33,170 bases of DNA from a virus, in the IMG/VR virus record IMGVR_UViG_3300044641_006339, positions 1 through 33,170 of that record. One strand, written 5' to 3'. Shown here in pieces: positions 1-33,170 of this stretch; within the stretch, counting starts at the first letter, position 1, and every line of letters starts with the position of its first letter. Under the pieces are notes generated by a model that saw only the letters and a program-made list of their open reading frames with translations, was not told the DNA's origin and did not search any database. Both the position numbers and the translations under genes were made by a program.

Positions 1-129
1 CGGTTTGGAAAAATCCCAGGAAAAACCGCCGTCCGGGGCCGGCCGTAGGCCTGGGCAGGCCATAGCGCCCACCAATCAACGCAAGAAAAGCCGTTCCGGC
101 CCCAAAAAGACGCCCCCATTTATGGCGCG
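1..129. other. Non-coding leader upstream of the terminase; possible packaging (cos/pac) region
   Basis: No convincing gene lies here; the long reverse-strand reading frame over it is a shadow of the terminase genes. Two short A-runs follow each other (ggaaaaatcc and ggaaaaacc near 7-28), then a GC-rich stretch. Packaging sites often lie just upstream of the small terminase gene, so this region together with the last 70 bases of the window is the likeliest place for cos or pac. I see no terminal repeat shared by the two window ends. Confidence 0.3.
105..124 (+). promoter_or_regulatory. Late-gene repeat element, copy 1 (upstream of terminase small subunit)
   Basis: This is the most diverged of three copies of a shared element. 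It reads AAAAGACGCCCCCATTTATG, against AAAACGCGCCCCCATTTAGG in the other two. Its CATTTA block ends 7 nt before the terS ATG, and no Shine-Dalgarno lies in between. That spacing fits a -10-like element for a near-leaderless transcript. The promoter role is inference; the repeat itself is seen. Confidence 0.6.
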
Positions 130-579
130 ATGCCAAAGGGCGGCAAAACCAAGCTGACAGCCGAGACGCAGGAGAAGATCTGCCAGTACCTGCGCGCAGG
201 TTGTTTCCGGCGGACGGCCGCGGCGCTGGTGCGTATCGACGAGGCCACGTTCTCGCGCTGGTATCAGACCGGCGCGCGAGAGCCTCGCGGACGGCTCCGC
301 ACGTTCTTCGAGGAGGTCAACCTGGCCGAGGCTCAGTTCGAGGCCGCCGGCCTGGCTCAGATGCGTATCGCGGCGCAGGCACACCCCAAGGCTTGGATGC
401 TGCTGCTGTCCCGCCGGTTCCCGTCCAGGTGGGGGCGGCGCGACAACGTGATGGAGGCCGACACGGCTCCCGGTCAGGCCAACGTCGAGGAGCTGCGCGA
501 GCTGCTGCTCTCTCGCCTCGAGCGCCTGGCGCAGCCGGCGCCCAAGGCCGACGCGGAGGCCGCGGCCGATGCGGAGTGA
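130..579 (+). CDS. terS: Terminase small subunit
   Basis: This 149-residue protein is the usual size for a small terminase, the DNA-recognition part of the packaging motor. Residues about 10-50 form a helix-turn-helix: 'TQEKICQYLRAG' is followed by 'TFSRWYQTG', typical of small terminases that bind the pac/cos site. The middle is helical, suited to oligomerisation, and the tail is acidic and Ala-rich. The gene begins 7 nt after the repeated late element and has no recognisable ribosome-binding site. Its end overlaps the large terminase start by 11 nt, so the two are probably translationally coupled. The function rests on the HTH and on synteny. Confidence 0.85.
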   Translation: MPKGGKTKLTAETQEKICQYLRAGCFRRTAAALVRIDEATFSRWYQTGAREPRGRLRTFFEEVNLAEAQFEAAGLAQMRIAAQAHPKAWMLLLSRRFPSRWGRRDNVMEADTAPGQANVEELRELLLSRLERLAQPAPKADAEAAADAE

Positions 580-1944: not shown

Positions 1945-3294
1945 ATGGGCTGGTGGAACAACGTCAAGGATGCATTCGGTGGGAAGCAGCGGCCAGGCAC
2001 GGGCCTCGAGGTGTCCCGCTGGGTGAGTGCGCCGCCGCGCCGCGGGGCGTCGGAGTTGCTCCGCGCCTACAAGGAAATGCCGTGGTTGCGGACGGTCGTG
2101 GACGTGGTGGCCGACAACGTGGCGAATGCACAGTGGCGCGTCTACCGCCGCGTCAATGCTGACGGCCGCCGGGACTTCACGCTACGGACTGCCAGCAAGG
2201 CCGCCCGCGCTGCGCGCATCCGCGCTCTGACGCAGTCCGGCGAGATGGTCGAGGTGCCAGACCATCCGTTGCTATCGCTACTGACTGACCCCAGCGACCA
2301 CCTGTCGGGCAGGGCCGTCCTCAAGCTGTCTCAGGTGCATCTGGATTTGGTGGGCGAGGCCTTCTGGGTGCTCGACCGCGTGGCCGGCGTCATCGTCGGC
2401 GCGTGGCCGGTGCCGCCCAACGCCGTCATCGCACTGCCGGACCTCTCCGCGCCGAGGGAGGAGCGCGTCTATCAGGTGAACATCGGCGGCAAGGCGCGGA
2501 GGATTCCGGCCGCTGACGTGGTGGCGCTGCGGATGCTGGACCCTGACGACCCCCTGGGACGCGGCATCGGGCCGGCCTTTGCGCTCGGCGACGAGCTGGA
2601 CGCGGACGAGTACGCGGCGCGCTACACGAAGAATTATTTCTTTAACAGCACTCTCCCGGCCGCCGTCGTGTCCATCGACGGGCTGAACGATGCCAACGCG
2701 GCGCCCGTGCGCGCGTTCAAGGAGAGCCTCGAGCGGGAACACAAGGGACCGGACCGCGCCGGAAAGCTGCTCGTTACGGGCGGCAAGACGACGTTCGCCC
2801 GGCTGGACACGTCTTTAAAGGACATGCAGTTCGTCGAGCTGCGGCGCTTCCTGATGGAGTTCGTGCGGATGACGTACCGCGTGCCGCCCGAGATTGTGGG
2901 CGACATCAGCAACAGCAACCGCGCTACGGCGTTCGCGGCGCGCGAACTGCTCGCCGAGCAGGCCGTGTTGCCGCGGCTCGAGTTCCTGCGGACGGAGCTC
3001 CAGGCGCGGCTGGCCCCCCAGTTCGGGCCGGACGTGGTGCTGGACTACGACTCGCCCGTCCCGGCAGACCGCGAGCATCAGCTCAAGGTGATGGTCTCTA
3101 TGCCCGAGGCCTTCTCCTATGACGAATGGCGCGAGCTCGCGGGCCTGCGGCCTGACGCTGACCGGCAGGGATACCCGTTGCCGCTGCCTGGGCAGGTAGA
3201 GACGCAGCCGGCAGGCGAGACGCCAGCGCAGGAGCCCGAGGCTGCCAGCGGCGAGCCGTGGCAGCGCGAATCGGACCCAGGAGCGGCCGCGTGA
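1945..3294 (+). CDS. Portal protein, HK97 family
   Basis: The protein has 449 residues, within the range of HK97-type portals. Portals form the dodecameric ring at one capsid vertex through which DNA enters and leaves. Family-like features are 'YTKNYFFNSTLPAAV' (about residues 226-240), the segment 'TYRVPPEIVGDIS' (about 309-321) followed by 'NRATAFAARELL', and a disordered Pro/Glu/Ala-rich tail. The order terL, portal, protease, capsid is the standard HK97 arrangement. The start is set by GAGGAGA 8-9 nt upstream of the ATG. The stop overlaps a GTG that opens a possible small downstream gene. Confidence 0.93.
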   Translation: MGWWNNVKDAFGGKQRPGTGLEVSRWVSAPPRRGASELLRAYKEMPWLRTVVDVVADNVANAQWRVYRRVNADGRRDFTLRTASKAARAARIRALTQSGEMVEVPDHPLLSLLTDPSDHLSGRAVLKLSQVHLDLVGEAFWVLDRVAGVIVGAWPVPPNAVIALPDLSAPREERVYQVNIGGKARRIPAADVVALRMLDPDDPLGRGIGPAFALGDELDADEYAARYTKNYFFNSTLPAAVVSIDGLNDANAAPVRAFKESLEREHKGPDRAGKLLVTGGKTTFARLDTSLKDMQFVELRRFLMEFVRMTYRVPPEIVGDISNSNRATAFAARELLAEQAVLPRLEFLRTELQARLAPQFGPDVVLDYDSPVPADREHQLKVMVSMPEAFSYDEWRELAGLRPDADRQGYPLPLPGQVETQPAGETPAQEPEAASGEPWQRESDPGAAA

Positions 3295-3548
3295 CTCTCA
3301 AGCCGTGTACCATCACAGCGGCGGCCGCTCATGTCTCCCGCGTGCATAGACACCATCGCCCCCCCCTGGCGGAGCGAGAGCGGCGTCAGCCTGCGCGCCA
3401 GTGGATGGACGCGCGAAACCGTGACGCCTGGTGGGAGTTGGGCGCGCCCGAGCAGGGCACGCACGGACAATCACCCTACATGCCCCAAGGTGCGCTGGAG
3501 TGCCGTAATCTAGCGACTGAGCCACAACCAAAACGCGCCCCCATTTAG
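3291..3548 (+). CDS. Possible small protein between portal and protease (GTG start)
   Basis: A reading frame of about 85 residues starts at a GTG that overlaps the portal stop (GTGA). This is the same 4-nt coupling used throughout the genome. Its middle, around 'DARNRDAWWELGAPEQ', has G/C-rich third codon positions and looks coding. It ends with CCC ATT TAG, so its stop codon lies inside the late repeat element. I do not recognise the family, and the first third (Ala/His-rich) is less convincing. If it is not a gene, the portal-protease gap is an unusual 262 nt of non-coding DNA. Nothing else, including a tRNA, fits there well. Confidence 0.4.
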   Translation: MTLKPCTITAAAAHVSRVHRHHRPPLAERERRQPARQWMDARNRDAWWELGAPEQGTHGQSPYMPQGALECRNLATEPQPKRAPI

Positions 3549-3549
3549 G
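3530..3549 (+). promoter_or_regulatory. Late-gene repeat element, copy 2 (upstream of prohead protease)
   Basis: The sequence AAAACGCGCCCCCATTTAGG is identical over 20 nt to copy 3 at 10017-10036, and 16 of its first 18 bases match copy 1. CATTTA ends 9 nt before the protease ATG. An AGG directly before the ATG is too close to be a good ribosome-binding site. Exact identity across unrelated genes argues for a bound site, probably a promoter for capsid genes. Confidence 0.7.
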
Positions 3550-3556
3550 GCGCAGG

Positions 3557-4423
3557 ATGCAGCGCCTAAAGACGTTCAACCTCGCCACCAAGGCAGCGAC
3601 CGACTCCAAGTCCGGCACGCTGTATACGTTCCGTGCGAACGACGGCGAGGTGGACCGCTACCAGGACCGCGTGAGCGTCTCCGGCTGGAAGCTGGACGCC
3701 TACAACGCAAACCCCGTTGTGCTGTATCAGCACGACGAGGGCGCGGGCCTCGAGTCAGGCGCTCCCATCCTGCCTATCGGTAAGGGCCTCGCCTACGTGG
3801 ACGGGGACGCGCTCATGGTCGACATCCAGTTCGACCAGGACGACGAGTTCGCGCGCAAGGTAGAGGCGAAGGTGGCGGGCGGATTCCTCAACGCGGTGTC
3901 CGTCCGCTACGTGATGCAGGACTTCAAGCAAAACGAACTGGGCGGGTATGACTCGCTCGCTCAGGAGTTGCTTGAAATCTCCGTCGTTGTGGTGCCTGGG
4001 AACCAGCGCGCCCTCCGCGTCAAAGGGCTCGAGGCCGACGCGGCCGCCGAGCGCATGGCCGACCTGGTGACGGCGCGGGTTTTGGCGGCGCTTGCGGCAA
4101 AGGATGCGAGCAAGGCTGCGGCAGACGTTCCGTCTGATGGTCTTCCATTGGATGTGGCGCCGGTAGACGCGGAGAAGGCAGCCGGCGCCGTCATTAAGTG
4201 CGGTTCGTGCGAGTGGCAGATGTCCGTGCCTGCATGCCCTGAGTGCGGCGGCGAGGTGACTGCGTGGGAGGCCGAGCCTTCCGAGCAACCTGCCCAGGAG
4301 ACTTCGGCGGCCGAGGCGGCGGCGCCGGAAACATCGAAGCCCGCTGCAGAAACCCCCAACCTCGAGGAGCTGGCGCGAGAGCTGGCCGCCCTCACGCTGT
4401 CCCACTTGAAGGAGCAGGCATGA
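3557..4423 (+). CDS. Prohead protease (HK97/U35-S78 type) with C-terminal zinc ribbon
   Basis: The protein has 288 residues. The N-terminal ~155 are a capsid-maturation serine protease: His59 in VVLYQHD, Ser115 in LNAVSVRY, and the following strand LLEISVVVVPGN (139-149), the usual order of the HK97 protease family. It should cleave the scaffold part of the capsid subunit and itself. The C-terminal half is Ala/Glu-rich and helical, like an internal scaffold. Unusually, it contains a four-cysteine zinc ribbon (C215, C218, C227, C230; CGSC and CPEC). The stop overlaps the capsid start (ATGA). A late repeat element lies directly upstream. Confidence 0.9.
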   Translation: MQRLKTFNLATKAATDSKSGTLYTFRANDGEVDRYQDRVSVSGWKLDAYNANPVVLYQHDEGAGLESGAPILPIGKGLAYVDGDALMVDIQFDQDDEFARKVEAKVAGGFLNAVSVRYVMQDFKQNELGGYDSLAQELLEISVVVVPGNQRALRVKGLEADAAAERMADLVTARVLAALAAKDASKAAADVPSDGLPLDVAPVDAEKAAGAVIKCGSCEWQMSVPACPECGGEVTAWEAEPSEQPAQETSAAEAAAPETSKPAAETPNLEELARELAALTLSHLKEQA

Positions 4424-9970: not shown

Positions 9971-10004
9971 GGGGCGCCCTGGCAACGGGGCGCCCCTTGC
10001 TTTT
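9971..10004 (+). terminator. Strong rho-independent terminator after the fibre gene
   Basis: The arms GGGGCGCC (9971-9978) and GGCGCCCC (9989-9996) pair perfectly with a 10-nt loop and are followed by TTGCTTTT. It lies 20 nt after the fibre stop. The third late repeat element starts only 13 nt downstream, so transcription seems to stop here and restart for the tail genes. Confidence 0.9.
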
Positions 10005-10016
10005 CGCGCCATGCCT

Positions 10017-10036
10017 AAAACGCGCCCCCATTTAGG
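10017..10036 (+). promoter_or_regulatory. Late-gene repeat element, copy 3 (upstream of the gp10-like gene)
   Basis: The 20 bases are identical to copy 2 at 3530-3549. CATTTA ends 7 nt before the ATG at 10042, the same spacing as copy 1. Sitting between a strong terminator and the first tail-module gene, it has the setting expected of a promoter. Confidence 0.75.
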
Positions 10037-10041
10037 TTGGG

Positions 10042-10464
10042 ATGACCGAGGGCAGTGTCCAGATTGAAGGGCTAGAGCATCTGCGAAAGCGGCTTGTTGA
10101 GCTGTCGCCGCAGGTGCTGTCTGCCTGTGGTCCGACGCTGCGGGCCGAGGCATCAGAAATACTCTCCTCGTCCTCGGCTGGTGTCCCTACGGCATCAGGA
10201 GAGTTGTCCGGAAGCGGATTTGTCAGCAATGCGGAGCTGTCTAGCGACGGCCGCAGTGTGACTGTCACTGTCGGCTACGACGCCGAGCACGCGGCTTTCG
10301 CGCATGAGGGATTCTTCGGATTCCCTGGCGTCGAGGGCAAGTTCGGGCGAACTGGCGAACCGCCCAAGTTTCTCGAGCGAGCGACAGACGGGCGAGGCAA
10401 CGCACTCGCAAAGAAGGTTGGCGCCGCAATGATTAAGGCGCTGCGGCGTCTTGGACAGAGGTAA
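10042..10464 (+). CDS. HK97 gp10-like neck/tail completion protein
   Basis: The protein has 140 residues. It opens with 'IEGLEHLRKRLVELS', the usual start of the HK97 gp10/minor structural family. It contains 'VTVGYDAEHAAFAHEGF', the conserved 'Y....A...HeG' segment, and ends with 'PKFLERA' followed by a helix. These proteins act at the head-tail interface or in tail completion. It is the first gene after the fibre terminator and has the late repeat element directly upstream. AGGTTGGG before the ATG could act as a poor ribosome-binding site. Confidence 0.8.
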   Translation: MTEGSVQIEGLEHLRKRLVELSPQVLSACGPTLRAEASEILSSSSAGVPTASGELSGSGFVSNAELSSDGRSVTVTVGYDAEHAAFAHEGFFGFPGVEGKFGRTGEPPKFLERATDGRGNALAKKVGAAMIKALRRLGQR

Positions 10465-29382: not shown

Positions 29383-29588
29383 CGCCCGTGGAACTCGACG
29401 CCTGGCGCGTGGCCGCCTCCCGTCTGCTGTGCCTGCGGCACGTCGCGGAGAACGTGCCGGACGCCACCGAGGACGAGGTAGAGGCCGTGGTGATGTTTCA
29501 GCGCTGCGACCTCTGCGAGTCGCTGGTGGTGGCTCGCTGGACGCCTAGCAGGCAGCGGGCGGCAGAAGCCCAGGAGGACCCGCCGTGA
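29379..29588 (+). CDS. Small CxxH/CxxC protein
   Basis: The protein has 69 residues. Cys18 and His21 (LLCLRH) with Cys43 and Cys46 (QRCDLC) make a plausible single zinc site around an acidic helix (PDATEDEVEAVVMF). No family was recognised. It starts ATGA over the previous stop and ends in a GTGA overlap with the next gene. It belongs to the run of metal-binding microproteins in this operon. Confidence 0.6.
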   Translation: MTPVELDAWRVAASRLLCLRHVAENVPDATEDEVEAVVMFQRCDLCESLVVARWTPSRQRAAEAQEDPP

Positions 29589-29803
29589 GCCGCGCCGTGC
29601 GTCCAACAACGACGCCGTGCCCGTCGTGCGGCGCCCTCGTCCGCACGCTCGAGCCGGTGCCCCGAGAGCATCCGCCCGCCGCGTGTGTCGTCTGCACTCG
29701 TCCCCTTCCCTACCAGGGCCGCGGGCGCCCTCGGCGCTGGTGTCCTGAGTGCCGCCGCATCCGCAGCCGTTTCCGCATCTCTGACTCGGAGTTCGACCTG
29801 TGA
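29585..29803 (+). CDS. Zinc microprotein with GRPR motif (paralogue 1)
   Basis: The protein has 72 residues. CPSC (12-15), CVVC (about 35-38) and CPEC (about 53-56) could hold one or two zinc ions. 'YQGRGRPRRWCPECRRIRSR' contains an AT-hook-like GRPR directly before the last Cys pair. The next gene has the same order: CxxC, CxxC, GRPR/K, xPEC, Arg-rich tail. They therefore look like diverged tandem copies. Nucleic-acid binding is a reasonable guess, not proven. It starts with GTG. Confidence 0.7.
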   Translation: MSRAVRPTTTPCPSCGALVRTLEPVPREHPPAACVVCTRPLPYQGRGRPRRWCPECRRIRSRFRISDSEFDL

Positions 29804-29997
29804 AGTCCAAGCCCTATTGCCCCACCTGTAACCGACGCCTTCACAAGCTGACGGCGAAGCCGGCGCGCTGCCTCGTCTGCAAGAAGCCCGTTGTCGGCCT
29901 CGGCTTCGGGCGGCCGCGCAAGCTGCACCCGGAGTGCCGCAACGTGCGCCGCAAGGTGTACCGCCGCAAGGCGCGGGGCGCGGAGGTGGCACCGTGA
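29800..29997 (+). CDS. Zinc microprotein with GRPRK motif (paralogue 2)
   Basis: The protein has 65 residues. CPTC (7-10), CLVC (24-27) and HPEC (43-46) align with the Cys pairs of the previous protein, with His replacing the first Cys of the last pair. 'FGRPRKLHPECRNVRRKVYRRKARG' keeps the GRPR/K core and the basic tail. It is more compact and more basic (Lys-rich) than paralogue 1. The GTG start overlaps the preceding stop, and its own end overlaps the next GTG. Confidence 0.7.
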   Translation: MKSKPYCPTCNRRLHKLTAKPARCLVCKKPVVGLGFGRPRKLHPECRNVRRKVYRRKARGAEVAP

Positions 29998-30257
29998 TTC
30001 TGACCGACGCGGACCATCTGCGTGAGGCGCTTGAGCTGGTGCGCCAAGAGCGAGACATAGCGCGGGCGGCGGTGCTGCCCGTCGTAGAGCAGGCCGACCG
30101 GCTTGAGCGCGAGCGCAACTACTGGCGGGCGCTGGCAACGACAGCGGCCGAGCGACAGCGCCAGGCCTGCGCGGACTACATGGCGGAGGAGCGCTGGTAC
30201 ACAACTCTCGCGTGCCTGTCGGCGCCGCTGGTTACGGACAGGAAGGGCGAGCCGTGA
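29994..30257 (+). CDS. Hypothetical coiled-coil protein
   Basis: The protein has 87 residues, nearly all helical: 'DADHLREALELVRQERDIARAAVLPVVEQADRLERERNYWRALATTAAERQRQA' in pattern. Such short coiled coils are common next to replication and Nin-like genes. No family was recognised. The GTG at 29994 is fixed by 4-nt coupling; a longer frame from 29934 overlaps the zinc microprotein. Confidence 0.6.
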   Translation: MILTDADHLREALELVRQERDIARAAVLPVVEQADRLERERNYWRALATTAAERQRQACADYMAEERWYTTLACLSAPLVTDRKGEP

Positions 30258-30505
30258 CGGAGGCGGTCCGAAAGAGGCTCGAGCGCGCTGCCCTGGCAGC
30301 GCACGCGGCCAAAGAGGAGCGCGTTACGGTTGCGACCGGGGCGCTGGTGGAGCTGCTCGCCGCGGTGCAGGACGTAGCCGTCATCCGTCGACTGTGCGGC
30401 CTTGCGGCCACGTGGGTCGGCGTCGAGCCGGTGTCCGACATTGGCGCGCGTTCGGTAGGTGTGCTGCGGCGGCAGCTGTGGGACGTCCGAAAGGGGCGGC
30501 TGTGA
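30254..30505 (+). CDS. Hypothetical small helical protein
   Basis: The protein has 83 residues. Helix 'EAVRKRLERAALAAHAAKEERVTVATGALVELLAAVQDVAVIRRLCGLAATWVGVEP' in pattern, with a short basic end. No motif is identifiable. It is coupled to both neighbours by GTGA overlaps and sits directly before the Holliday junction resolvase gene. Coding is supported mainly by the unbroken chain of overlapping starts and stops. Confidence 0.55.
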   Translation: MTEAVRKRLERAALAAHAAKEERVTVATGALVELLAAVQDVAVIRRLCGLAATWVGVEPVSDIGARSVGVLRRQLWDVRKGRL

Positions 30506-30882
30506 GGCTCTCCCTGCCCTACCCGCCGAGCGTGAATCGCATTTGGAGGGTCTTTCGGAATCGCATCATCAAGTCAGCCGAGGGGCGGGCCTACTCGGCG
30601 CGCGTCCAGACGACTGTGGCGCTGCTGGGTTTGCGTCCGCTGGACGGGCCGGTGTCCGTGACGGTGGCCGCCTACCGGCCAGCGCGCCGCGGCGACTTGG
30701 ACAACGTGCTGAAGGCTGGGCTGGACGCCCTCAACGGCGTTGCCTGGGGCGACGACTCCCAGGTGGTCGAGCTGCACGCGGTCCGGTTTGACGACAAGGC
30801 AAGCCCGCGCCTGGAGGTGACGGTGTGCGCGGCCGGCGAGGTTACGCGGTGCCCGGCGTGCGGCGGTGTGGCGCGGCCGTGA
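30502..30882 (+). CDS. rusA: RusA-family Holliday junction resolvase with Cys-pair tail
   Basis: The protein has 126 residues. It starts 'LSLPYPPSVNRIWRV', the usual RusA opening (lPyPPs.N..wR). It has the catalytic acidic cluster in 'RRGDLDNVLKAGLDALNGVAWGDDSQV': Asp65, Asp67, Asp75 and Asp84/85. The dimeric enzyme cuts four-way DNA junctions, helping to resolve replication or recombination intermediates before packaging. The C-terminal ~18 residues add 'CAAGEVTRCPACGG', three Cys not found in standard RusA as I know it. The GTG at 30502 overlaps the upstream stop. It is followed by the sigma-like gene. Confidence 0.88.
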   Translation: MRLSLPYPPSVNRIWRVFRNRIIKSAEGRAYSARVQTTVALLGLRPLDGPVSVTVAAYRPARRGDLDNVLKAGLDALNGVAWGDDSQVVELHAVRFDDKASPRLEVTVCAAGEVTRCPACGGVARP

Positions 30883-31565
30883 CCACTCGCTCCCTGGCCA
30901 GCCTATGCGCCGCCCGTATCCGCGAGCTGCGCGCGGCTGGCAGGGACGCACGCGCCGAGGAAGGGCGGCTGTTGCTGCTGCTCGAGCCGTGGCTACGGCG
31001 CGAGGCAGGCAAGTTCCGCAATGCAGCCGGGACGGTCCAGTGGGACGACCTCATCCAAGAAGCATCCTTGCGGGCGCTGCGGGTGTGCGACGGCTACCGG
31101 CTGGAGGCTGGCGACTTCAACGTGGTCGCCTTCCGCCCGGTGCGGCGGGCGCTGCGGGACTATGTGGGCGCGCACGGGCTGGACGTTCGGCCCAGCTACC
31201 ATGCCAGGCGTGGCAGGGGCCGACCCAAGGTGGGGCGGTGCGAGGTGGTGCAGGTAGATGGCGAGGCGTCGGGCGGCACTGAGTGGGCGCACCCGGAGGC
31301 TCTGCTCGCCGAGGGGCTGGAGCTGCGCCAGGTACGGCGGGCAGTGCGTGGGCTAACGCTTCATCATCGGCAGCTAATCGAGGCGGCGTTCGGGCTGGCC
31401 GGTGCGCGGCAGACGTCAGCTCGAGGGATGGCGCAAGAGATGGGAATCGGGCGGCGCCAAGTGGACGCGCAACTGCGCGAGGCGCTCGAGGCGCTGCGGC
31501 TGGTGCTGGTGCGGAAGGGGCGGCGGACGCCGTGGAAAACAAACAACGAAAGGTCACAAACATGA
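30879..31565 (+). CDS. Sigma-70-family factor, candidate late gene regulator
   Basis: The protein has 228 residues. Residues about 33-96 resemble sigma region 2: 'LLLLEPWLRREAGKFRN', then 'WDDLIQEASLRALRVCDGYRLEAGDFNVVAFRPVRRALRDYV', matching the DLIQEG...A...F....F..YA...IR.ai..Y pattern. A basic stretch (about 102-118) replaces region 3. Residues about 150-210 resemble region 4: 'LTLHHRQLIEAAFGLAG' and the HTH 'TSARGMAQEMGIGRRQVDAQLREALEALRLVL' in pattern. No region 1.1 is present. It lies after the resolvase gene, the place of the late regulator Q in lambda. It may recognise the repeated late element. The GTG at 30879 overlaps the RusA stop. Confidence 0.82.
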   Translation: MTTRSLASLCAARIRELRAAGRDARAEEGRLLLLLEPWLRREAGKFRNAAGTVQWDDLIQEASLRALRVCDGYRLEAGDFNVVAFRPVRRALRDYVGAHGLDVRPSYHARRGRGRPKVGRCEVVQVDGEASGGTEWAHPEALLAEGLELRQVRRAVRGLTLHHRQLIEAAFGLAGARQTSARGMAQEMGIGRRQVDAQLREALEALRLVLVRKGRRTPWKTNNERSQT

Positions 31566-32818
31566 GTGAGACACTTAGGCTGGAGCATCTCCTGCTGTCC
31601 GCGCTGACTCCGGCGCAGCGCAACCCAAAGAATCACGCCCTGCCCGCGCTGCGGGACTCCATCGGGCGCTTTGGCTACGTGGAGCCCATCGTGCTGGACG
31701 AACGCACCGGGCGCCTCGTCGCGGGCCACGGGCGGGCCAAGGCGCTGTCGCTGATGAAGGCCAAGGGCGGCAAGCCCCTGGCTGGCGTGGCCGAGAAGGA
31801 CGGCGAGTGGCTGGTTCCAGTGATGCGCGGGTGGGCCAGCCGCAGCGACCAGGAGGCCGAGGCTTACCTGCTGGCGTCCAACCAGTTGACGGTGGCGGGC
31901 GGGTGGGACGAGGGGCCGCTGGCTGAGTTGGTGAGGGAGTTGGCCGACGCGCAGGCGTTGGAGGGCACCGGCTTTGACGCCGAGGCGCTGGAGAAGCTGC
32001 TGGGCGAGGCGGCGGGCACCAATGGCAACACCGACCCGGACGAGGTGCCCGAAGAGCGTCCCACCGATATCAAGCTGGGGGACATGTTCCGCCTGGGCGA
32101 CCACCTGCTGATGTGTGGGGACTCCACCAAGGCCGAGGACGTGGACCGCCTTATGGGTGGGGCGCTGGCAGACATCTGCTGGACGGATCCGCCGTGGAAT
32201 GTGAACTACACCGGGAAGACGAAGGCCAAGCTGAAGATTGCCAATGACAACCTCGGCAGCGCCTTCCCGGCGTTTTGCACAGACTTCTCCGAGCAGATTG
32301 TCCGCGTGCTGAAGCCGGGAGGTCTTGTTTACCTCGCCATGAGCACGTCCGAGTGGGCCGTCATCGACACCACACTGAAGGCTTCCGGTCTCAAGTGGAG
32401 CACCACCATCATCTGGGCTAAGGACTCGCTTGTCCTGTCGCGCAAGGACTACCATCCACAATACGAGCCGCTCTGGTACGGATGGAAGGACGGTGCCGCG
32501 CGCCTCTGCCCGCTCGAGGACCGCACGCAGTCGGACCTCTGGAGCATCCCAAGGCCGAAGCGCAGCGAGGAGCACCCAACCATGAAGCCGGTGGAGCTGG
32601 TGGCACGCGCGCTCGCCAACAGCAGCAAGCCGGGGGCGCTGTGCTTCGAGCCTTTCTCGGGTAGCGGCACCACGTTGCTGGCGTGCGAGAAGATGGGCCG
32701 CGCCTGTCGTGCCATCGAGCTGGGGCCAAAGTACGTTCAGGTCGCTATCGACAGGTGGGAGGCCTTCACCGGCCGCAAGGCAGAGAAGGTCCAGGACAGT
32801 GCCACGCCTGCAAACTGA
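31562..32818 (+). CDS. ParB-domain DNA adenine methyltransferase
   Basis: The protein has 418 residues. The N-terminal ~110 are a ParB-like nuclease domain ('DSIGRFGYVEPIVLDERTGRLVAGHGRAKAL' in pattern, residues 32-62). Residues about 185-418 are a beta-class amino-methyltransferase: motif IV DPPW at 209-212 (DPPWNVNY) precedes motif I FEPFSGSGTT at 362-371. It should transfer methyl groups to adenine (or cytosine N4) in phage DNA, protecting it from restriction. The ATG at 31562 overlaps the sigma stop. The leader is A-rich with AAAGG 9 nt before the start. The phage DNA has many CTCGAG sites, a possible target. Confidence 0.9.
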   Translation: MSETLRLEHLLLSALTPAQRNPKNHALPALRDSIGRFGYVEPIVLDERTGRLVAGHGRAKALSLMKAKGGKPLAGVAEKDGEWLVPVMRGWASRSDQEAEAYLLASNQLTVAGGWDEGPLAELVRELADAQALEGTGFDAEALEKLLGEAAGTNGNTDPDEVPEERPTDIKLGDMFRLGDHLLMCGDSTKAEDVDRLMGGALADICWTDPPWNVNYTGKTKAKLKIANDNLGSAFPAFCTDFSEQIVRVLKPGGLVYLAMSTSEWAVIDTTLKASGLKWSTTIIWAKDSLVLSRKDYHPQYEPLWYGWKDGAARLCPLEDRTQSDLWSIPRPKRSEEHPTMKPVELVARALANSSKPGALCFEPFSGSGTTLLACEKMGRACRAIELGPKYVQVAIDRWEAFTGRKAEKVQDSATPAN

Positions 32819-33101
32819 CAGGCCCGGGGCGTGCGCGGCCTGCGGCGGGCCTATCGAGCGCGGCGAGGTCATCGAATATCAGCTAGCGGTGGGGGCGCGG
32901 CACCTGACGTGTGTGGACCGGCCCGCGGCCCTGCGGCGCAACCGATACCGGACGGCGTGCGGGCTGTGTGGCCTGGTGCTGCGCCCTGGCGAGGGGCTGT
33001 TGTCAGTGGCCGAAACGGCCGCCCAAAGCACCTACGAGCGCGAGTGGCGGGCCGTCTGCGCTGACGCAGGGGCCTGTGACGCGCGGATCCGGGGCGGGTA
33101 G
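32799..33101 (+). CDS. Small zinc-binding protein, last gene of early operon
   Basis: The protein has 100 residues. 'CAACGGPIERGEVIEYQLAVGARHLTCVDRP' gives a CxxC...HxxC site (about 11-42), and 'TACGLCGLVLRPGEGLLSV' with 'AVCADAGAC' gives a second. The fold looks like two treble-clef or LIM-like fingers ('aCggC...i..Ge......ga.H..C'). The function is unknown; HNH endonucleases often sit here in other phages, but no HNH catalytic motif is visible. The start is probably GTG at 32799, overlapping the methyltransferase end by 20 nt. A longer frame from 32709 is less likely. Confidence 0.6.
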   Translation: MPRLQTDRPGACAACGGPIERGEVIEYQLAVGARHLTCVDRPAALRRNRYRTACGLCGLVLRPGEGLLSVAETAAQSTYEREWRAVCADAGACDARIRGG

Positions 33102-33170
33102 GAGGGGCGCCGCGGCGGCAACAGGCCCCCCCCACCCAAGAGTTCCGCAGGGTTGGCCAAATTTGTACTG
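33102..33170. other. Non-coding right end
   Basis: These 69 nt hold a GC-rich inverted patch (GCGCCGCGGCGG), a run of eight C (33126-33133) and the palindrome TTGGCCAA (33153-33160). Nothing codes here. If the genome is circular in the cell, this joins the 129 nt upstream of the terminase to make a ~200-nt gap suited to a packaging site. Across that junction CCAAA (33157-33161) faces TTTGG (3-7 of the window). Confidence 0.35.

Follow-up and report, generated by a model that had tools for sequence, protein, structure and literature searches.

A phage-encoded sigma-70-family factor with its predicted promoters at lytic genes of a temperate siphovirus and its relatives

In PBSX of Bacillus subtilis, the xpf gene lies directly upstream of the terminase genes. 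Its product, a positive control factor of the phage, is sigma-like and comprises sigma2 and sigma4 (PMC10141391), the PBSX hydrolase genes are listed in the Xpf regulon (PMC10653849), and a phage with an Xpf-like sigma has been described (PMC3398947). T4 gp55 and SPO1 gp28/gp34, which are essential, are phage sigma factors through which the host RNA polymerase is turned to middle or late genes (PMC9429907), and SigN (ZpdN) of plasmid pBS32 is a mobile-element sigma factor with an own-promoter regulon and autoactivation (PMC6751061). Phage sigma switches are already known (gp55, SPO1 gp28/gp34 and PBSX Xpf; PMC9429907, PMC10141391); new here is a variant of such a switch with mRNAs predicted to be leaderless.

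The window, the whole 33,170-nt stretch of viral DNA analysed here, carries a 228-aa open reading frame on the plus strand (30879..31565, GTG start, TGA stop), present as the first-pass annotation had described it, that encodes the sigma-70-family factor P0001. Going by the descriptions, P0001 is like Xpf in having sigma2 and sigma4 at about the same size. An Xpf-type late sigma factor is encoded upstream of the terminase and controls virion and lysis genes; here the gene and the elements have the corresponding positions, and control by P0001 is a prediction. Unlike PBSX, the phages considered here have different hosts, and a single kind of predicted promoter recurs in them at numerous places, on either strand and at replication genes too. 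The sigma factors gp55, gp28 and gp34 belong to lytic phages and are very divergent, whereas in P0001 regions 2 and 4 can both be recognised and the predicted promoter has a −35 as well as a −10. The prophage region of pBS32 is mostly free of SigN promoters, whereas here the elements lie at virion genes. The location of the P0001 gene matches that of the RinA/Ltr late activators (PMC13123087), but these are basic proteins of about 130 aa without sigma similarity that use a host-type promoter, and P0001 is a 228-aa protein matching sigma profiles. Finally, lambda Q works by antitermination on a transcript that is already under way, whereas here new initiation past a terminator is indicated; the sigma factor plausibly takes the place of a Q-type antiterminator.

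The start of the sigma ORF shares 4 bases with the end of rusA (30882). Compared with a 93%-identical copy in the L002 contig, the gene carries 55 substitutions, distributed 12/8/35 over codon positions 1/2/3, a pattern that identifies it as a real protein-coding gene. Taken alone, P0001 scores slightly below curated cut-offs, both for TIGR02937 (residues 35-208, E 1.4e-10, 41.0 bits where the cut-off is 42.9) and for Pfam Sigma70_r2 (E 3.6e-4). It also matches PHROG 1740, "RNA polymerase sigma factor" (E 1.4e-6), and a second PHROG sigma-factor family (E 2.3e-5). The homologue in G005, a 37-kb relative, is 37-40% identical to P0001 (~38%) and stands above the cut-offs of TIGR02937 (E 3.2e-15) and Sigma70_r2 (27.5 vs 24), while its Pfam region 4 score is 19.8, below the 24.1 threshold. 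TIGR02937 matches 19/19 members of the family alignment (best E 8.3e-18). Region 2 and region 4 features had been claimed for the protein and a profile search against sigma-70 suggested as a check; the features are recognised by TIGR02937 (regions 2 to 4), by PHROG 1740 and by the profile of the 19-member alignment (A6) against the PDB, where the 60 matches listed are sigma factors only. The best of these is RpoS (E 7e-16), in a single alignment spanning region 2 to region 4, and region 4 is matched by RpoS region 4 and by full-length sigma factors. A comparison with 50,697 annotated phage records gave no near relative of the sigma factor.

In the domain layout, region 2 occupies approximately residues 36-96, a short region 3.0-like motif (DVRPS) residues 102-106, and region 4 approximately residues 139-215; a region 2.2-like motif, DDLIQE, is intact in the A6 alignment. 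AlphaFold models built from 2 and 3 sequences are of low confidence (pLDDT 55 and 58), and a Foldseek search with a low-confidence model returned sigma factors or sigma domains for all of the best 50 matches, none with E <0.001; the fold match serves as support for the sequence result. The family, PDB and model matches together place P0001 in the sigma-70 family, among the short factors built of sigma2 and sigma4, with DVRPS as what is left of region 3.0. Judged from its sequence, the phage very probably encodes its own RNA polymerase sigma subunit. ECF (group IV) factors consist of sigma2 and sigma4, lack complete regions 1.1 and 3, and have a closely linked anti-sigma. The 19 sequences have the two-domain build, their region 4 is nearest RpoS/SigA among the PDB matches listed, and no anti-sigma was identified for P0001, the neighbouring Zn-ribbon gene being a candidate.

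A RusA-like resolvase ORF (30103..30882, plus strand; PF05866, E 5.7e-18), the true start of which may be further in, directly precedes the sigma gene, in agreement with the claimed position after RusA in the last part of the early operon. The further claim, a place immediately ahead of the terminase once the map is closed to a circle, is essentially correct. Within the window, a methylase gene and a Zn-ribbon gene separate the sigma gene from the genome end, and the L002/L033 sequence, a single contig through the joined ends, has the order rusA, sigma, Zn-ribbon gene, terS, terL, portal. TTTGnACTG is the terminal sequence of the window as well as of G005, and these two and L034 have like starts (CGGTTT/CCGTTT) just upstream of terS, as expected of a common cos-like end. 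Positions 1-20 and 33150-33170 of the window are genome ends resembling such a site. The window also encodes a tyrosine integrase (PF00589, E 1.5e-6), an exonuclease, RecT and siphovirus tail genes, all of which fit the temperate siphovirus that had been proposed.

The ParB-like/N4-N6 DNA methylase gene (31562..32818, plus strand; PF01555, E 3.9e-25 for the enclosing ORF) is an insertion between the sigma and Zn-ribbon genes; L033 and G005 have no methylase there. The small Cys-rich, Zn-ribbon-like protein gene (~32799..33101, plus strand) is conserved between sigma and terS and adjoins sigma in most relatives. Its product has no significant Pfam family and is 65% identical in G005, compared with 38% for sigma; it is possibly a partner of the sigma factor, as a candidate co-activator or anti-sigma. 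Two adjacent small zinc-ribbon-like genes, similar to each other, lie at 29585-29997. Upstream of sigma in G005 (L058 1040-1220) is a TTGACG-17-TCAAAT sequence overlapped by TGGGAT repeats, together with a small divergent ORF (1208-1402) that looks ribbon-helix-helix-like by eye and gave no match in a Pfam search; region and ORF possibly form a repressor switch for sigma. Several intergenic CGACACGAC / GTTGTGTCG motifs upstream of the G005 replication operon (L058 1690-1880) are possibly operators of a lysogeny repressor.

A repeat is present in exactly three copies in the window (102-141, 3527-3566 and 10014-10053) and in none of 100 shuffles. The copies lie immediately before the start codons of the genes for terS, the prohead protease and a neck protein, and share the consensus nnGCCA-17 bp-CATTTA followed by 5-9 nt and the start codon, an arrangement that is constant in relatives. 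A weight-matrix scan of the window scored the three copies at 28-41 bits and the next-best site at 12, leaving the three virion-gene elements as the only sites. All are on the plus strand. Element 1 (94..132) has CATTTA at 117-122 and a degenerate −35 (TTCCGG) with no GCCA, and precedes the ATG at 130 of the terminase small subunit gene terS (130..579; PHROG 4102, E 1.2e-20). Element 2 (3519..3559) reads GAGCCA-17 bp-CATTTA (3542-3547) before the ATG at 3557 of the prohead protease gene (3557..4423; PF04586, E 5.5e-5). Element 3 (10006..10044) reads GCGCCA-17 bp-CATTTA (10029-10034) before the ATG at 10042 of a neck/tail-completion protein gene (10042..10464; PHROG 5, E 2.3e-6), the first gene of the neck/tail operon.

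Directly 5′ of element 3 is an intrinsic terminator (9971..10004, plus strand; 11 pairs, 10 of them G-C, z −4.2), the strongest of the window and kept in relatives. Element 3 is squeezed between this terminator and the next ATG, and because the stem ends about 10 bases upstream of the −35, a promoter is needed exactly there. At copy 2, conservation between the window and L033 restarts right around the −35 after a mismatch of approximately 250 bp; this stretch of the portal-protease gap (3270-3517) has no match to relatives. The portal stop codon (TAG) of L033 lies inside the promoter element, so that the −10 and the 3′ end of the gene overlap.

The position of the elements at start codons might suggest that they act as RNA, as a hairpin or a translational operator, and element 2 could form a GCGCCC/GGGCGC hairpin. 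We regard this as extremely unlikely, since the three copies fold differently and two fold no better than shuffles; RNA hairpins were rejected for lack of a fold common to the copies. A CCTAAA-N-TTTAGG dyad in element 3 was likewise rejected, as it is broken in relatives.

A scan of viral contigs with the G005 terminase (TerL) yielded about 30 further records, mostly prophages of isolate genomes by their record numbers; scans of genome contigs with MCP and TerL found no prophages. The same element occurs at the same genes in related phages and prophages. A sigma gene lies upstream of terS in 26/26 prophages with enough upstream sequence, as well as in G005 and L033, with 26-34% identity to P0001 among the aligned prophage members. 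These 26 prophages have the element before terS and, in nearly all cases, also before the protease gene. Among the proteins of the window, sigma is the only DNA-binding transcription factor in common with G005 (tblastn, E 1e-3). A scan of the collection with CGCCCCCATTTAKGG gave mostly chance matches, and the pattern did not fit copy 3; core matches in G006, G008, G009 and G010 were also set aside as chance, GCCA and most homologues being missing there.

We counted GCCA..CATTTA at all spacings between 10 and 25. In 15 clade-B prophages there are 75 cases with spacing 17, against 3 for the remaining fifteen spacings combined; the pair is found in G005 and L034 together 9 times at 17, 5 times at 10 and nowhere else, and in four window-type sequences 7 times at 17 and 3 times at 21; in shuffles the count of GCCA-N17-CATTTA is about 0. 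In clade C, a CATAAA −10 is found 16 times at spacing 17 and once elsewhere (CATTTA at 17, n = 0). An ORF start is no more than 10 nt away for 107/134 sites, compared with 417/2560 random positions (16%), although the genomes are related and the site counts are not independent events.

The stoperators of mycobacteriophage L5 are asymmetric, occupy short gaps between genes and point in the direction of transcription. The elements have these same properties and could be read as stoperator- or operator-like repressor sites that silence lytic genes in the lysogen. Yet an exact 17-bp gap between two short boxes is the signature of a sigma −35/−10, the sites stop 5-9 nt short of start codons, and element 3 fills the sole gap left for a promoter after the terminator. 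With no repressor common to the window and G005 found by tblastn with the window proteins, we consider silencing sites very improbable and read the elements as promoters.

The spacer of these promoters is conserved beyond the needs of a plain −35/−10 promoter, so another protein may read part of it. Between different loci of the same clade 1.3 of 12 spacer bases differ, and at the same locus of different clades 5.3, while the −35 and −10 stay alike between the clades whose spacers differ. The −35 (GCCA) is constant though the predicted region 4 recognition helix varies. The −10 varies with the sigma clade. Sigma clades C/D have CATAAA/CATTGA and zero CATTTA at spacing 17, and clade B2 shows the reverse; within one sigma clade, CATAAA/CATTGA is found at several sites simultaneously. 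On the sigma tree, the −10 type tracks the clades with the minimum possible number of changes, the deep switch amounting to about one change. The C/D sigma factors carry tryptophans (W..W) in region 2.3/2.4 that are not present in clades A and B, and these residues may read the changed −10. L095 has CATCTA upstream of both terS and protease and L099 has CTTTTA at both; these −10 variants are candidates for a further paired promoter change.

The RpoH −35 is of the CTTGAA type, and the window's CCCCATTTA resembles the −10 read by RpoH. It is conceivable that the elements are read mainly by such a host alternative sigma factor, or by a phage activator such as the Zn-ribbon protein, with P0001 as a helper. 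The clade-wise change of an otherwise conserved spacer, which suggests recognition beyond −35 and −10, and the better conservation of the Zn-ribbon gene beside sigma are consistent with this. However, the CTTGAA-type −35 is absent from the elements, the CCCC before CATTTA is not retained in clade B, and a host sigma factor would leave the divergence of the elements between the individual phage clades unaccounted for. As the sigma gene is present in every relative with enough sequence, we consider reading by another factor unlikely. The pairing of sigma and repeat, which the first-pass annotation had marked as its own inference, is well supported by co-occurrence, exact −35/−10 spacing and clade-wise covariation in about 30 relatives.

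The same annotation had proposed a dedicated late switch, which is not supported in that form: in relatives, the same promoters also stand ahead of genes for replication and recombination and at times of the sigma operon itself. G005 has three more sites on the opposite strand. The first lies before a small gene with a VapE-type primase-helicase gene next in line, the second before an operon that extends to a family A DNA polymerase gene, and the third before a 56-aa ORF. Prophages L087 and L084 have sites before the genes for VapE primase, a PD-(D/E)XK exonuclease and a DNA methylase. The presence of the element before primase, exonuclease and methylase genes in relatives points to a lytic-programme sigma factor that is not strictly late. 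In clades C/D, as in part of clade B, the sigma operon itself has a site in front of it, suggesting positive feedback.

We consider it highly probable that P0001, together with the host core enzyme, directs initiation at the phage's own nnGCCA-17 bp-CATTTA promoters of lytic genes. The case is built from the protein's place in the sigma family, the conserved position of its gene, the promoter-like layout of the elements, and the co-occurrence and covariation of the two; binding to the core, recognition of the promoters, the timing and order of events and leaderless starts are predicted parts of the model. The early operon, with the P0001 gene as its last gene, would be read by a host sigma factor. 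The two-domain, ECF-like P0001 (sigma2 and sigma4) would then bind the host RNA polymerase core and, by sigma replacement, direct it to its promoters. As P0001 accumulates, terS/terL/portal, protease/capsid and neck/tail/lysis would be turned on in the window phage. The homologues in relatives would also activate operons for primase, exonuclease and methylase and, in a number of these phages, their own operon in a positive feedback. The mRNAs would start at or very near the start codon, given that the −10 lies 5-9 nt upstream of it. We somewhat favour the broader proposal that one stand-alone promoter type with leaderless mRNAs runs most lytic genes (replication, packaging, head, tail and in some cases sigma), and that sigma and its ~3-8 promoters per genome have been re-specified together, from a −10 of CATTTA to CATAAA/CATTGA or the reverse.

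These phages, a group described here with prophages in isolate genomes, form a compact natural set in which promoter specificity has apparently changed in concert; it comprises approximately 130 promoter-like sites and over 25 orthologous sigma factors. Expression of virion genes from leaderless mRNAs is predicted, and the set lends itself to direct tests of how sigma factors and promoters co-evolve and how an entire regulon is rewired.
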